Shown here in pieces: positions 2,398-6,190 of a stretch of DNA of 6,249 bases (within the stretch, counting starts at the first letter, position 1; each line of letters opens with the position of its first letter). A model generated the notes under the pieces. That model was not told where the DNA came from and searched no databases. It saw only the letters and a list, made by a program, of their open reading frames with translations. Source of the DNA: Chloroflexota bacterium. GTDB lineage: Bacteria > Chloroflexota > Dehalococcoidia > JACQGW01. The position numbers and the translations under genes are program-made. The stretch spans positions 1 to 6,249 of the forward strand of contig JACQGW010000157.1 in assembly GCA_016199325.1 (NCBI GenBank). The letters run 5' to 3'.

Positions 2398-3144
2398 GTG
2401 ACCCCATGGCTTCACTGTTTGATGGCACGCGACCAGGAGCTTCAGTTGCCTTCCGCCCTCCACTGGATCGGCACCGACGAGTACGGGCGGGACATCTTGA
2501 GTCGGCCCATCTACGGCGCTCGGGTGTCCCTCGGAGTGGGCGTGGCGGCGGTCGTGCTGGGTGCCAGCGTGGGCGTGGCGGCCGGGCTGGCTGCCGGCTA
2601 CTGGCAGGGCTGGATCGAAACGATCGTGATGCGTATCTGCGACTCGCTGCTGGCCTTCCCGGCCATCCTGCTGGGCATCGCCCTGGCCGTCCTGTTTCAG
2701 CCCGGCGTGGTGAACGTGGCGCTGGCCACCGCGAGCATCAGCGTGCCCCAGTTTGCCCGCATTGCCCGGGCCGGTGCGCTGCAGGAGAAGCACAAGGAGT
2801 ACGTGACGGCCGCGCGGGTGCTGGGCGCCTCAGACCGGCGGATCGTGCTGCGCCACATCCTGCCCAACGTCACGTCGCCCATTATCGTGCAGGTGAGCCT
2901 ATCCATGGCGTTTGCCGCCCTGCTGGAGGCCGGCCTCAGCTTCCTGGGACTTGGCGTGCAGCCGCCGGAGCCGTCCTGGGGCTCGATGCTGAACACCAGC
3001 CGCCGCTTTCTGCGCGACACCGCCTGGTATGCCATTGCGCCCGGCTTCGCGCTCACCCTGTTGCTGCTGGGGCTGAACTTCCTGGCGGACGGTCTGCGCT
3101 CGGCGCTCGACCCCCGCGGCCGGCGGGCTACGGCGAATGAGTGA
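2398..3144 (+). CDS. Dpp/Opp-type ABC transporter permease, N-terminally truncated
   Basis: An inner-membrane permease of the dipeptide/oligopeptide/nickel ABC importer family (DppC/OppC type). Family hallmarks are LPSALHWIGTDEYGRDILSR near the N-terminus, about five hydrophobic segments, the EAA loop that docks on the ATPase (EYVTAARVLGASDRRIVL, then ILPNVTSPIIV), LEAGLSFLGLGVQPPEPSWG, and a normal end (GLNFLADGLRSALDPR). DppC proteins usually run 270-300 residues with a first membrane helix about 60 residues before the GTDE motif. Here that part is absent. GTG 2398 gives 248 aa and ATG 2422 gives 240; TGA at 2392-2394 blocks any longer start. Neither start has a well-spaced Shine-Dalgarno; the good one serves the out-of-frame ATG 2391. 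No DppB, ATPase or binding-protein gene is adjacent. Probably a 5'-truncated, non-functional copy, though translation of a shortened protein is possible. Confidence 0.8.
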   Translation: MTPWLHCLMARDQELQLPSALHWIGTDEYGRDILSRPIYGARVSLGVGVAAVVLGASVGVAAGLAAGYWQGWIETIVMRICDSLLAFPAILLGIALAVLFQPGVVNVALATASISVPQFARIARAGALQEKHKEYVTAARVLGASDRRIVLRHILPNVTSPIIVQVSLSMAFAALLEAGLSFLGLGVQPPEPSWGSMLNTSRRFLRDTAWYAIAPGFALTLLLLGLNFLADGLRSALDPRGRRATANE

Positions 3145-3145
3145 G

Positions 3146-3166
3146 GCGTCATGCGTCATGCGTCAT
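3146..3166. repeat. Three perfect tandem copies of GCGTCAT
   Basis: GCGTCAT is repeated without interruption at 3146-3152, 3153-3159 and 3160-3166, starting two bases after the permease stop codon. Its origin and role are unknown. Replication slippage, part of a dispersed intergenic repeat, or a protein-binding array are possible. Confidence 0.75.
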
Positions 3167-3189
3167 GGGGCGGTTCGTGGTACGCACTT

Positions 3190-3211
3190 CCCGGCGCACC
3201 GGGGTATCTTT
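3190..3211 (+). terminator. Weak candidate terminator hairpin after the permease
   Basis: CCCGG at 3190-3194 pairs with CCGGG at 3199-3203 around a CGCA tetraloop, followed by GTATCTTT. The stem is only 5 bp and the T-tract is poor. It sits between the permease stop and the next promoter, where a terminator would be expected. Support is weak. Confidence 0.25.
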
Positions 3212-3237
3212 CCAAAGGCCGGTGAATGGGGTATACT
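3209..3237 (+). promoter_or_regulatory. Promoter for the riboswitch transcript
   Basis: TTTCCA at 3209-3214 (4 of 6), a 17-base spacer and TATACT at 3232-3237 (5 of 6). The predicted start near 3244 is about 14 bases before the first P1 base of the aptamer, the arrangement expected for a riboswitch leader. Confidence 0.55.
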
Positions 3238-3257
3238 GTGCCCGGCTATCCTGACCT

Positions 3258-3378
3258 GCGCTGAACCGGCGGCTCGGACCGCCGGACGGGGGACCCGTTT
3301 CGTGGGGTGAATTGCCTCCGGTTGGCATAGGGACCGGCCAACGCCGGCCCCGAACCCGTCAGCTTACCTCGTAAGCGC
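3258..3378 (+). ncRNA. Cyclic-di-AMP riboswitch (ydaO-yuaA leader)
   Basis: This matches the conserved ydaO-yuaA aptamer, which senses c-di-AMP. P1 is closed by GCGCT (3258-3262) with AGCGC (3374-3378). A perfect 7-bp hairpin follows (CCGGCGG 3266-3272 / CCGCCGG 3279-3285). The conserved core blocks appear in order: GGGGGACCC (3288-3296), GGGGTGAAT (3304-3312), a variable stem built on CCGGTTGGC (3318-3326), CCCGAACCCGTCAG, and then CTTACCTCGTAAGCG up to 3377. The last two blocks are nearly identical to the family consensus, with one U replacing A in CUAACC. It lies between a promoter and a small two-gene unit in the same orientation. Known targets of the class are mostly cell-wall hydrolases and ion or osmolyte transporters; the gene downstream here is of unknown function. 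Confidence 0.93.
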
Positions 3379-3404
3379 CGCTCGCCGAACAACGGGAGGG
3401 GCGC
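3375..3404 (+). promoter_or_regulatory. Predicted riboswitch expression platform (Shine-Dalgarno-sequestering hairpin)
   Basis: GCGCCGCTC (3375-3383) can pair with GAGGGGCGC (3396-3404) at 8 of 9 positions around a 12-base loop. The right arm covers much of the Shine-Dalgarno GGGAGG (3394-3399) and reaches the base before GTG 3405. The left arm shares 3375-3378 with the 3' strand of aptamer helix P1, so P1 and this hairpin exclude each other. No U-tract follows, which favours translational rather than transcriptional control. As drawn, ligand binding would stabilise P1 and free the ribosome site. This is a hand-derived fold. Confidence 0.5.
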
Positions 3405-3764
3405 GTGATCAAGACACGGCCGTCATCGCACCGGGAGGCCGGGGGGCTGGCATCTCATCTGTCCGCCGAAGCGATCCCCTACGCCGACGAGATTGTCGAG
3501 GCGTGGAAGTGGGAAGACCCCTGGCTGGTCCCGTATCTGGAGCGGCTGCCGCGCATTCTGTACTACGCGATGAAGGGCCTGCCGCCCAGTCGTATTGCCG
3601 GTTGTTTGCCCGGCCTGCATCCGGTTGACGCGCGCGCGATCGAGCGCGTCCTGCACCTCGTCGCCGGCGAAGTCAGGCGACGCGCAGAGCGGGACCGGCA
3701 GCTCCAGCGGCGTCGAGCCGTTACCCCGGGCAGTCAGAGATTGGGGGAGAGAGTCGATGGCTGA
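3405..3764 (+). CDS. Uncharacterised 119-aa protein under c-di-AMP riboswitch control
   Basis: I do not recognise this protein. It starts at GTG 3405, with GGGAGG at 3394-3399 five bases upstream and the riboswitch immediately before it. It is predicted mostly helical and soluble, with no signal peptide or membrane helix. Residues 22-58 contain an aromatic-rich stretch (PYADEIVEAWKWEDPWLVPY). Residues 52-90 (YYAMKGLPPSRIAGCLPGL and on to the RVLHLVAGEV helix) have the spacing of a helix-turn-helix: a helix, a GLPPSRIAG turn, then an amphipathic helix. The tail (88-119) is rich in Arg and Gln. Its last 8 bases overlap the start of the XRE-like gene, which suggests translational coupling and a joint role. 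A DNA-binding or partner-protein role is an inference from the shape and the neighbour only. Confidence 0.75.
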   Translation: MIKTRPSSHREAGGLASHLSAEAIPYADEIVEAWKWEDPWLVPYLERLPRILYYAMKGLPPSRIAGCLPGLHPVDARAIERVLHLVAGEVRRRAERDRQLQRRRAVTPGSQRLGERVDG

Positions 3765-3999
3765 ATACGCCCCGTTTGCCGATTGGCTCGCCGCGTCGAT
3801 GCAGCAGCACGACCTCAGCCGGCTCGACGTCGCCGCTGCGCTCCGGGTCTACTACAACGTGCTGCTGGACTGGCTCAGCGGCGCCGCAACGCCAACTCCC
3901 CAGGAAGTCAGCCGGCTGGCCGAGTACTTCGAGGTGCCGTCGGGGCAACTGGTCGCCCTGGTAAGGCTGGACGAAGAGCCCGAGCCCGCTATCGGCTGA
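3757..3999 (+). CDS. Small XRE-like helix-turn-helix protein
   Basis: An 80-aa protein that is little more than one Cro/C1-type DNA-binding domain. FADWLAASMQQHDLSRLDVA, continuing through AALRVYYNVLLDWLSG (residues 7-42), fits helices 1-4 of the HTH_3 fold. PTPQEVSRLAEYFEVPSGQL (46-65) matches the usual ending, in which a Pro-rich turn leads to a helix and a second short helix. The recognition helix (RVYYNVLLDWLSG) has Tyr-Tyr-Asn where many XRE proteins have Ser or Arg, so the DNA site cannot be guessed. ATG 3757 has a purine-rich GGGGGAGAGAG (3743-3753) close upstream and overlaps the previous gene by ATGGCTGA. It is therefore on the riboswitch transcript. Its last 11 bases overlap the 3' end of the converging CpaE/TadZ-like gene. 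Likely a transcriptional regulator with unknown targets. Confidence 0.8.
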   Translation: MAEYAPFADWLAASMQQHDLSRLDVAAALRVYYNVLLDWLSGAATPTPQEVSRLAEYFEVPSGQLVALVRLDEEPEPAIG

Positions 4000-5737
4000 G
4001 CGCGATCTCGACCGGCTCGGCAAGCGGCGCTCCCTGGACGCGCAGGATGAAGCTCCGGTTCTGATCGGGTACGTCGAAGACGAACGCGGTATTGACCGTC
4101 AGCCCGGGGGCGATCGGGGTCGCAAACGGGTTGGTCAGCCGTGAGCGCAGGTAGTAGCCCAGCCCGCCTTCCGACGAGACGTCGTACTCCCCACCGCGAT
4201 CGTCGCGCAGACGCACGTCGCGCTGTCCCAGAATGCCGTTCTGGCTGCTCACGTTCTGAAGCCGCAGGTTCACGGCGAGAAACCGTCCCGCCGGCCGGCG
4301 CGTGAAGTAGCGCGCGTCGGGCTCGACGGTCTCCAGCGATACGACGGTGTACTCCCAGTACCGATCGCGGACGGGCGTCCCGATTCCCGGTCTGGCCGCT
4401 GCGCTCGGCGGGACCGCAGCGATGGCGCTCAGCGGCGTTCCATTCAGCGCGCCGATGCCATAGAGAAGCGCGGCACCGCCGAGCAGCGTGCCGGCGACGA
4501 GCGCGACGCCCAGCCCGTAGAGCTCCCGCCGCCGGGCGGCGAGCTGCGCCACCTCCCACGGGGTCTGGACCCGCCGCGTCGCCACGTCGGCGAGGACCGT
4601 CGCCGCAGTGAGCGGCCCCGCGACGACCGCGGCAAGGTCGAGGAACCGCTGCGCGATCTTGCCGGCCGGATCGCGCAAGACCAGCGGCACGCCGAGATCC
4701 AGGCCGTCCCGCAGCGCCCCGTCGACCGGCAGCGCCACGCTGACGCGCTGGCCGAGGCGCCGCTCAACCTCAGCGGGCGAGATGGACGGACGTTCGTCTG
4801 CCCGGTTCACGACGAGCGAGGTTCGCTCGACGAGGCCTTGCCGCGTCAGCCGGTCGAGGACGCGCCCGACCTGGACGAGGGCGGCGATGTCGGTCGTCGT
4901 GACCAGGATAACGTTGTCGGCGAGCTGAAGCACGGCCTCGGTGCCGGCGTCCAGGTCGTGGCCGAGGTCGACCACCACGAAGCCGAAGCGTGCCCGCAGC
5001 GCCAGCACGGCGCTGGGGAGCTGGTCCGGGCTCAGCGATCGCTGGCTTGGCGGCAGGAGGATCTGCAGGCCCGACCAGTGCTCGACGAGCAGCCCTTCGA
5101 GATCGCCGCCGGTGCCGGCCGGCCATTGCACGATCTTCTTCTCGGCGTCGAGCGAGAGCGCAACGCCCACCGCGCCAAACTCAGGGCGGCCGTCGACGAC
5201 GGCCACGCGCGTGCCGGTGCGCATGGCGATGGTGCCCAGAGCGGCCGACAGATTGGCGACGACGGTGGTGCAGCCGGCGCCGCCTCGCGGGCTGAATACG
5301 GCCACGACCTTCCCGGCCGGTTGCTGCACAGGCGGCGCGACGGTCGCGGGCGGCGCGAGCGTCGCAGCCGGCGCCTGGGCGCGGGCAACCCGGCGGATGG
5401 CCTGAACGAGCTCGGCCTGCTCAATGGGACGGGTGAGGAACTCGTGGACGCCGGCCGACATCGCCCGCCGCATGACCTCGTACCCGGCAACGCTGGCGAC
5501 GGCGATGATCTCGCCGGAGATGCCCCGGCGGCGGAGTGTCTCGCTCACCGCGGCGAGCGTCTCGCCCAGGAAGTCGGCGTCCAGCACGATGGCGCTGGGC
5601 CAATCCGGGGCGACGCCGGTGCGGTCGGGGCCGGCCACCGACAGCACGTCGACCTGGCCGCTCGCCGTCAGGAGCCGACCCAGATCGCCGCCGGTCGGCT
5701 CCACGACGAGCACCTTCAGTCGGGCCGGGAAGACCAT
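3989..5737 (-). CDS. CpaE/TadZ-like pilus protein: receiver, ParA-like domain, membrane helix, DUF4352-like domain
   Basis: A 582-aa multidomain protein. Residues 7-118 form a receiver-like domain (KVLVVEP, VLDADF around Asp53/Asp55, AMSAGVHEFLTRPIEQAELV), with Arg103 where active receivers carry Lys, so it may be unphosphorylated. An Ala/Pro linker (119-142) leads to a MinD/ParA-type domain (143-375). Its Walker A reads PRGGAGCTT (150-158), with Arg151 and Cys156 in place of the two lysines of KGGxGKT, and a Walker B-like VVVDLGHD spans 254-261. This suits the structural, weakly or non-hydrolytic TadZ/CpaE group, which helps localise the Tad secretion machine. A membrane helix lies at 409-429. 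Residues 459-572 look like a DUF4352-type beta domain (YWEYTVVSLETV, RFLAVNLRLQNVSSQN), predicted extracytoplasmic. Ordinary CpaE/TadZ proteins stop after the ATPase-like domain. The gene starts at ATG 5737, 30 bases after the TadE-like stop, and probably shares its transcript. Confidence 0.85.
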   Translation of the reverse strand: MVFPARLKVLVVEPTGGDLGRLLTASGQVDVLSVAGPDRTGVAPDWPSAIVLDADFLGETLAAVSETLRRRGISGEIIAVASVAGYEVMRRAMSAGVHEFLTRPIEQAELVQAIRRVARAQAPAATLAPPATVAPPVQQPAGKVVAVFSPRGGAGCTTVVANLSAALGTIAMRTGTRVAVVDGRPEFGAVGVALSLDAEKKIVQWPAGTGGDLEGLLVEHWSGLQILLPPSQRSLSPDQLPSAVLALRARFGFVVVDLGHDLDAGTEAVLQLADNVILVTTTDIAALVQVGRVLDRLTRQGLVERTSLVVNRADERPSISPAEVERRLGQRVSVALPVDGALRDGLDLGVPLVLRDPAGKIAQRFLDLAAVVAGPLTAATVLADVATRRVQTPWEVAQLAARRRELYGLGVALVAGTLLGGAALLYGIGALNGTPLSAIAAVPPSAAARPGIGTPVRDRYWEYTVVSLETVEPDARYFTRRPAGRFLAVNLRLQNVSSQNGILGQRDVRLRDDRGGEYDVSSEGGLGYYLRSRLTNPFATPIAPGLTVNTAFVFDVPDQNRSFILRVQGAPLAEPVEIALSR

Positions 5738-5767: not shown

Positions 5768-6190
5768 TCATTCGGCATACGTCGTGGAAACCGCACGGAG
5801 GAGGATCCCGCCCGATCCCCAGTACCGGGTGATGATCGGCGTGACCGGGTAGAACCGGTAGTCGACCGAGACCTGCACCCGGCTGCCGCTCACCGTCGTG
5901 CCGTCGGGATAGGTAACGCTGACCGTGAGCTGGGCCGGATCCAGGCCGATGGCGGCCGATTGGGCTGTTTGCCGAATGGTCGCCGTCGCGCTCGGCTGAA
6001 CCATGGCAAGGCGAGAAGCCTGTCGCGATGCGTGGGCAACCGTGTTGTAGGCGAAGGCCATGCGGCCGAAGTCCAGCACGCCGAAGAGCATCAGGATGAA
6101 CACCGGAAAGACCAGCGCAAACTCGACCATCGCCTGGCCGTGCTGCTTTCTTGCCGGCGCCATCGCTCCTGTCGTCGGCGCCTGCCACAC
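5768..6190 (-). CDS. TadE-like pseudopilin of the Tad/Flp pilus
   Basis: A 140-aa TadE/TadG-family protein. GQAMVEFALVFPVFI (residues 18-32) plus the following LMLFGVLDFGR is the hallmark: a short basic N-terminus, a G/A-MVEFA processing-like motif with Glu23, and one hydrophobic helix. The rest (ARQASR-like helix, then beta-rich TVSVTYPDGTTVSGSRVQVS) lies outside the membrane, as usual for these minor pilins. GTG 6190 is used here. ATG 6163, ten residues later, is an equally plausible start, with AGGAG very close upstream. The frame stays open to the right edge of the window, so a more distal start cannot be ruled out. The stop is TGA at 5770-5768, 30 bases before the CpaE/TadZ-like gene, in operon arrangement. 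Confidence 0.85.
   Translation of the reverse strand: MWQAPTTGAMAPARKQHGQAMVEFALVFPVFILMLFGVLDFGRMAFAYNTVAHASRQASRLAMVQPSATATIRQTAQSAAIGLDPAQLTVSVTYPDGTTVSGSRVQVSVDYRFYPVTPIITRYWGSGGILLRAVSTTYAE

Follow-up and report, generated by a model that had tools for sequence, protein, structure and literature searches.

The targets named for c-di-AMP riboswitches in the available portions of two reports are transporters, osmotic genes and wall genes (PMC7266159, PMC3766115), and the sites listed for S. lividans in the accessible part of a third, six of six, precede secreted or wall enzymes (PMC8079986). In B. subtilis, the ligand-bound state of these riboswitches leads to termination of transcription (PMC5575661, PMC9960051), and the riboswitch of C. 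glutamicum nlpC represses its gene, most likely at translation (PMC9960051); OFF switching holds for the members described in the available text of these papers, also for the one that acts on translation (PMC9960051, PMC5575661). HTH proteins appear in the portions of this literature at hand, including PMC5575661, as regulators that bind the ligand and not as riboswitch targets. For riboswitches acting through antisense RNA, the accessible part of PMC9943018 gives two previously described examples and 292 computational predictions. A literature search returned nothing joining a ydaO riboswitch with Chloroflexi or XRE regulators; published gene lists may already include HTH targets.

The window analyzed here is a 6,249-nt stretch of a Chloroflexota contig, for which the initial annotation had proposed a c-di-AMP riboswitch upstream of a small gene pair and had named an RF00379 search in advance as the test. 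The Rfam covariance model matched end to end (1-134 of 134) with 70.6 bits (gathering score 38) and an E-value of 2.3e-15. The structural parts named at that stage, P1, the 7-bp hairpin and the conserved blocks, were all recovered by the RF00379 alignment and by base pairing: GGGGUGAAU, UAGGG, CCGAACCCGUCAG and ACCUCG are present together with the closing P1, and the one non-standard pair of the alignment falls in the variable stem that follows UAGGG. The core pattern GGGGTGAAT..TAGGG..CCGAACCCGTCAG is found once in the window and in none of 200 dinucleotide shuffles. P1 is short, with five pairs, as it is defined here by Rfam's four pairs 3259-3262/3374-3377 plus G3258-C3378, which was added in this analysis. 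The aptamer is almost certainly genuine and is an ordinary member of its riboswitch class. Two microRNA rows of the same Rfam scan fell below their own gathering scores and were dismissed as chance.

Table. Features of the riboswitch locus and its downstream neighbors in the window
Feature	Position	Strand	Remarks
Sigma-70-like promoter (predicted)	3209..3237	+	-35 TTTCCA, 17 nt, -10 TATACT
c-di-AMP (ydaO/yuaA) riboswitch aptamer	3249..3392	+	RF00379, full-length model match
P1, 5' strand	3258..3262	+	pairs with 3374-3378
7-bp hairpin of the aptamer	3266..3285	+	3266-3272 with 3279-3285
P1, 3' strand	3374..3378	+	3377-3378, in short RNAs also 3375-3376, taken by the SD hairpin
SD-sequestering hairpin (5+3+3 bp), P1 competitor	3375..3404	+	-21.2 kcal/mol, z -3.72 (folding)
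Shine-Dalgarno (SD) stretch GGGAGGGG	3394..3401	+	read from sequence; mostly paired in the hairpin
Gene A, 119 aa	3405..3764	+	GTG 3405 to TGA 3764; helical in prediction, basic, family-less
Gene B, 80 aa	3757..3999	+	ATG 3757 to TGA 3999; Cro/C1-type HTH
CpaE/MinD-like ATPase gene with DUF4352	3989..5737	-	convergent with gene B, outside the A-B operon
TadE-like pilus gene	5768..6190	-	PF07811, E 3.4e-18

Within positions 3000-4100, a single promoter-like site was predicted (shuffle mean 0.1, sd 0.2), the -10 element of which ends 12 nt before the start of the aptamer; the first base of its -35 element coincides with the left limit, 3209, of the earlier delineation. The scan of the same interval detected no terminator-like site between the aptamer and gene A and none from gene B to 4100. 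The sole terminator-like site there, at 3189-3204, lies upstream of the promoter and does not exceed chance expectation (shuffle mean 0.6). Between the stop codon of the upstream permease gene and the riboswitch promoter, a perfect tandem repeat of the 7-nt unit GCGTCAT (3.1 copies, 3146-3167) was observed.

The first gene after the aptamer, which had been described as an unrecognized 119-aa protein, indeed has no family in Pfam, NCBIfam, PHROGs or PADLOC. Single-sequence AlphaFold2 modeling of gene A gave five helices with a mean pLDDT of 75.2, and its peak 19-residue hydropathy of 0.58 argues against the presence of a membrane or signal segment. Fold searches with gene A, in which an HTH or sigma region 4-like fold was considered, brought up no clear structural match, a point counted against the explanation preferred below. 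It is followed, with an 8-nt overlap, by gene B, whose XRE-like character was upheld by a match to PF01381 (HTH_3) narrowly above the cut-off (24.3 bits versus 23, E 3.2e-5), spanning residues 15-62 and profile positions 5-52 of 55. Weak support for the HTH also came from a PDB search (3op9, E 0.00098) and from PHROGs (transcriptional repressor, E 1.6e-5), and gene B probably encodes a DNA-binding regulator. The predicted net charges are +5 for gene A and -8 for gene B. On a codon score trained on five neighboring genes of the window, gene A reached 0.06 and gene B 0.22 per codon, compared with 0.28-0.35 for those five; both genes score best of the six frames, with the antisense frame of gene A close at -0.05. 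The low score of gene A was counted against the explanation we prefer below.

Downstream, gene B and the CpaE-like gene meet tail to tail with an 11-nt overlap. The CpaE/MinD-like ATPase has a receiver-like N-terminus and DUF4352 at its C-terminus. The adjacency to Tad-pilus genes stressed in the initial annotation holds as to position, given the TadE-like and CpaE-like genes; the genes lie on the opposite strand, and a link beyond convergent neighborhood found no support. Being tail to tail on the other strand, the Tad-type genes cannot belong to the A-B operon; it is no more than conceivable that gene B regulates these genes or that antisense transcription runs into them. Upstream, on the forward strand, the coding sequence of a DUF2905 protein is divided between two reading frames at 2102-2292, with 2102-2221 corresponding to PF11146 positions 8-45 (E 2.4e-8) and 2218-2292 to positions 45-63 (E 0.0012, below cut-off), so that either the gene is broken or the contig carries an indel. 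A lone OppC/DppC-type permease gene (2398-3144, forward strand; PF00528, E 2.9e-32) has no partner permease adjoining; an N-terminal truncation was considered doubtful, as the match starts late in some models (51 of 278 and 75 of 303), whereas the best model is matched from position 10 of 236.

Gene A starts 27 nt downstream of P1, and the interval is predicted to fold into a hairpin that encloses the SD. Its predicted pairs are 3375-3379/3400-3404, 3381-3383/3396-3398 and 3385-3387/3393-3395. When 3372-3410 was folded alone, 2 of 200 shuffles were as stable as the native sequence, and when the P1 strand was kept constant and only 3379-3410 was shuffled, the hairpin stability was matched in 8 of 2000. 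Without 3372-3378, the remaining 3379-3410 gave -9.7 kcal/mol (z -0.40) and a different shape. In ligand-free leaders starting at 3244 and ending at 3410, 3425, 3445 or 3465, the predicted pair probability of P1 was 0.00, and the nine inner pairs of the SD hairpin, including those of P1 bases 3377 and 3378, had probabilities of at least 0.96 in all four. The outer pairs (3375, 3376) reached 0.96 at the 3' end 3410 and 0.06-0.47 at 3425-3465, where 3374-3376 prefer pairing with 3362-3364; the overlap between P1 and the SD hairpin is thus smaller than the isolated hairpin suggests. Depending on the length folded, the SD hairpin takes two to four bases of the P1 3' strand, and P1 is displaced at every leader length, either by this hairpin alone or by it together with the 3362-3364 hairpin. 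Against the preferred explanation, the probability of the SD hairpin was 0.28 in 3340-3410, a piece without most of the aptamer. The use of P1 bases by the SD hairpin suggests, as far as folding models can tell, a platform fitted to the start of gene A.

The cost of opening the SD was then compared between the whole leader and the segment from 3379 onward folded alone, the latter standing in for a leader with P1 formed. The respective values were 9.3 and 0.5 kcal/mol for RNAs ending at 3410, 9.2 and 4.5 at 3425, 8.0 and 2.4 at 3445, and 7.7 and 3.9 at 3465, a gain that keeps its sign over the four lengths and varies in size. For the SD together with the start codon, the pairs of values were 11.2/4.8, 12.2/8.8, 10.9/6.6 and 11.4/8.2 kcal/mol in the same order, corresponding to a gain of 3-6 kcal/mol on P1 formation. 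Two results temper this picture. A 6-bp SD hairpin (3381-3398) can persist with P1 formed, which counts against the preferred explanation, and in the longer P1-formed RNAs four of the five SD bases are unpaired with probabilities of only 0.01-0.17. Furthermore, a fold constrained to contain P1 and the 7-bp hairpin is 9.4 kcal/mol less stable (-75.7 versus -85.1) in a model that contains neither pseudoknot contacts nor ligand, an amount that the ligand and tertiary contacts would have to repay. Among seven starts in the window, as assigned in this analysis, that of gene A alone is locally closed (10.7 versus 0.0-2.4 kcal/mol).

We propose that translation of a two-gene operon, A-B, is governed by a ydaO-class c-di-AMP riboswitch that has a promoter of its own. 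In the ligand-free RNA, P1 would be absent, with some of its 3'-strand bases pairing below the SD of gene A and keeping that site closed; once c-di-AMP is bound, P1 would be held, the base of the SD hairpin would be lost and gene A would be translated. Translation of gene B would follow from its 8-nt overlap with gene A and from an SD-like stretch of its own, read from the sequence at 3743-3753, and the gene B product, alone or with that of gene A, may bind DNA and so relay c-di-AMP to further genes. Control of gene A by the aptamer is very probable, and action at the level of translation is likely. An SD hairpin that takes P1 bases predicts translational control with c-di-AMP as the activator; since this direction opposes that of the OFF members described in the available literature, we place activation by c-di-AMP just short of an even chance and hold the complete statement, a translational ON switch of the A-B operon with an HTH relay, more tentatively still. 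The regulator relay is plausible on the one contig at hand.

To place the locus among other members of the class, it was compared with 19 further RF00379 sites in 11 records (9 + 4 + 5 + 1, the last in a Nonomuraea stretch), a biased set, the sites having been picked from plasmid records and a single IMG/VR record by their similarity to the window aptamer. Ten of the 12 matching plasmid records were used, leaving out Shinella and Halorubrum, and the Nonomuraea site came from one stretch of an 11.85-Mb record. The first gene was taken as the longest ORF with a start within 700 nt of the site; Pfam covered 18 of the 19 first proteins, L017 being identical to L014, and L026 and L027 are identical over the compared length. 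These genes encode AA_permease_2 permeases (seven), KdpA (two), TrkH (one), a Radical_SAM protein (one), a G5/3D protein (one) and, at the seven actinobacterial sites, wall enzymes of the M23, NlpC/P60, transglycosylase/M23 and GH25 types. An HTH gene was in first position at none of the 19, and the contrast with known targets that had been drawn at the outset is borne out by this set and by the S. lividans sites in the available part of PMC8079986.

Two of the compared loci are of interest in themselves. On a Niallia taxi megaplasmid, tandem c-di-AMP riboswitches (L013 and L018, NZ_CP102590.1 613053-613419) precede one kdpA gene. In Paenibacillus cellulosilyticus, a c-di-AMP riboswitch (L021, NZ_CP054613.1 1261332-1261475) lies upstream of a radical-SAM gene, which we take to be lysine-aminomutase-like, the Pfam assignment itself being Radical_SAM.

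The expression platform was compared with those of five of the seven actinobacterial sites, L008 and L028 having been dropped for ambiguous start codons, with the SD chosen by an automatic rule. The distance from the P1 end to the start is 28, 25, 22, 20 and 17 nt in these leaders and 28 nt in the window by the same measure, and this match gives the window the actinobacterial layout, terminator-less with a short spacer. In contrast, opening the SD in the presence of the P1 strand costs 0.0, 0.1, 3.6, 0.8 and 1.7 kcal/mol in the five leaders versus 10.7 kcal/mol in the window, and 0.9, 2.6, 0.8, 2.6 and 1.7 versus 8.3 kcal/mol in whole leaders. An SD lock of the window type was seen in none of the five. 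Both the target type and the SD/P1 arrangement are unusual among the sites compared. A different P1-competing layout is possible in the Embleya leader (L023): GGCGGC (1626-1631), in the region of the P1 3' strand, is complementary to GCCGCC (1647-1652) right upstream of the start codon, and pairing of the two would place the SD in the loop.

Searches for relatives returned little. The synteny across genomes that the initial annotation had named as support was thus neither seen nor contradicted, and its other refuting condition, homologues of gene A that lack the riboswitch, did not arise, as these searches found no homologue of gene A at all. The protein searches depend on shared 5-residue words and can miss distant relatives; they recovered gene A alone at E 0.01 among 237 scored candidates, gene B alone at E 0.001 among six, and the CpaE-like protein alone at E 1e-10 among 7992, which is odd for so common a kind. 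Genome scans with gene A (591 pattern matches) and the CpaE-like protein (78) and viral scans with gene A (80) and the permease (one) yielded no relative, and gene A had one chance match (E 10) among plasmids. At the DNA level, sequences like 3240-4020 covered at most 9% in plasmids among the matches listed (best 20 of 65) and at most 4% in phages (three of three matches). The aptamer block gave 18-nt matches in 30 Mycobacterium phage records (20 of the 30 listed); in viral_contigs the longest core pattern was absent, and three others led to one and the same record. The first-listed plasmid matches of the CoxM-like protein and the permease were to Thermomicrobium roseum (49.1%) and Deinococcus (52.9%), respectively; an RF00379 site was not found in the Thermomicrobium plasmid.

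Four other explanations were weighed. The same riboswitch and operon could work as an ordinary OFF switch, in which c-di-AMP closes the SD of gene A, by way of, for example, the residual 3381-3398 hairpin or a long-range pairing, with an effect as in C. glutamicum nlpC, and the HTH pair is made at low c-di-AMP. This is a substantial possibility, although short of even: the class members described in the accessible text of PMC9960051 and PMC5575661 are OFF switches, and in RNAs extending past 3410 most of the SD stays paired in the residual hairpin when P1 is formed, but P1 formation lowers the SD opening cost at all four lengths, and a non-systematic look brought up no element that closes the SD solely upon P1 formation. 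Another reading treats the aptamer as a relic that once served another gene, with A and B as recent arrivals or orphan genes in decay within a patchwork region and the SD pairing as a coincidence. The searches that found no relatives of gene A or B, the split DUF2905 gene upstream and the weak codon score of gene A fit such a history; the working spacing of promoter-like site, aptamer, SD and start, an SD hairpin stability that few shuffles attain, and two open, overlapping genes argue against it and make it rather improbable.

In HigBA modules, the small protein comes first and the HTH antitoxin second. Genes A and B, small and overlapping, with the HTH gene second and a basic product paired with an acidic one, could accordingly form a HigBA-like toxin-antitoxin pair brought under c-di-AMP control; the lack of a family for gene A in the four libraries and its all-helical prediction leave this very improbable. 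Slimmer still is the chance that the transcript runs beyond gene B and, depending on c-di-AMP, acts as an antisense RNA against the convergent cpaE-like gene. The tail-to-tail overlap, the scan that found no terminator-like site from gene B to 4100 and the antisense-acting riboswitches on record in the available part of PMC9943018 would accommodate it, but a translational-looking platform implies RNA levels that are largely untouched, and an open gene pair lies in between.

Under the translational ON switch proposed above, c-di-AMP would act via a relay and not directly on transport or wall genes, as do the c-di-AMP riboswitches of the available literature, which switch off genes for K+ transport, osmolytes and the wall without an intermediary. 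An SD-opening member with a regulator as its product would mean that the c-di-AMP signal can be inverted and relayed. New at this locus is the predicted SD lock built with bases of the P1 3' strand, and the position of the riboswitch before an orphan and an HTH gene is unusual among the sites compared. That an ON-switching riboswitch, with P1 withdrawing a strand from the SD lock, drives a small DNA-binding pair as an RNA-to-transcription-factor relay is on balance unlikely.

Compared with known systems, the window resembles the ydaO/yuaA riboswitches (RF00379) such as B. subtilis ydaO/kimA in its full-length aptamer and conserved blocks; it differs from ydaO/kimA in that no terminator was found, the start lies close behind P1, the first gene does not encode a transporter and the SD is predicted to be closed with help of P1's own strand. 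The C. glutamicum nlpC riboswitch likewise has no canonical terminator and most likely acts at translation; according to the available text of the report, it represses and precedes a cell-wall peptidase gene, whereas activation of an orphan and an HTH gene is predicted here (PMC9960051). The Vc2 c-di-GMP riboswitch of V. cholerae tfoY, as described in the accessible part of its source, differs in ligand and aptamer class and is an OFF switch, and is alike as a dinucleotide riboswitch acting on the translation of a regulator, with the same idea of a relay (PMC7371385).
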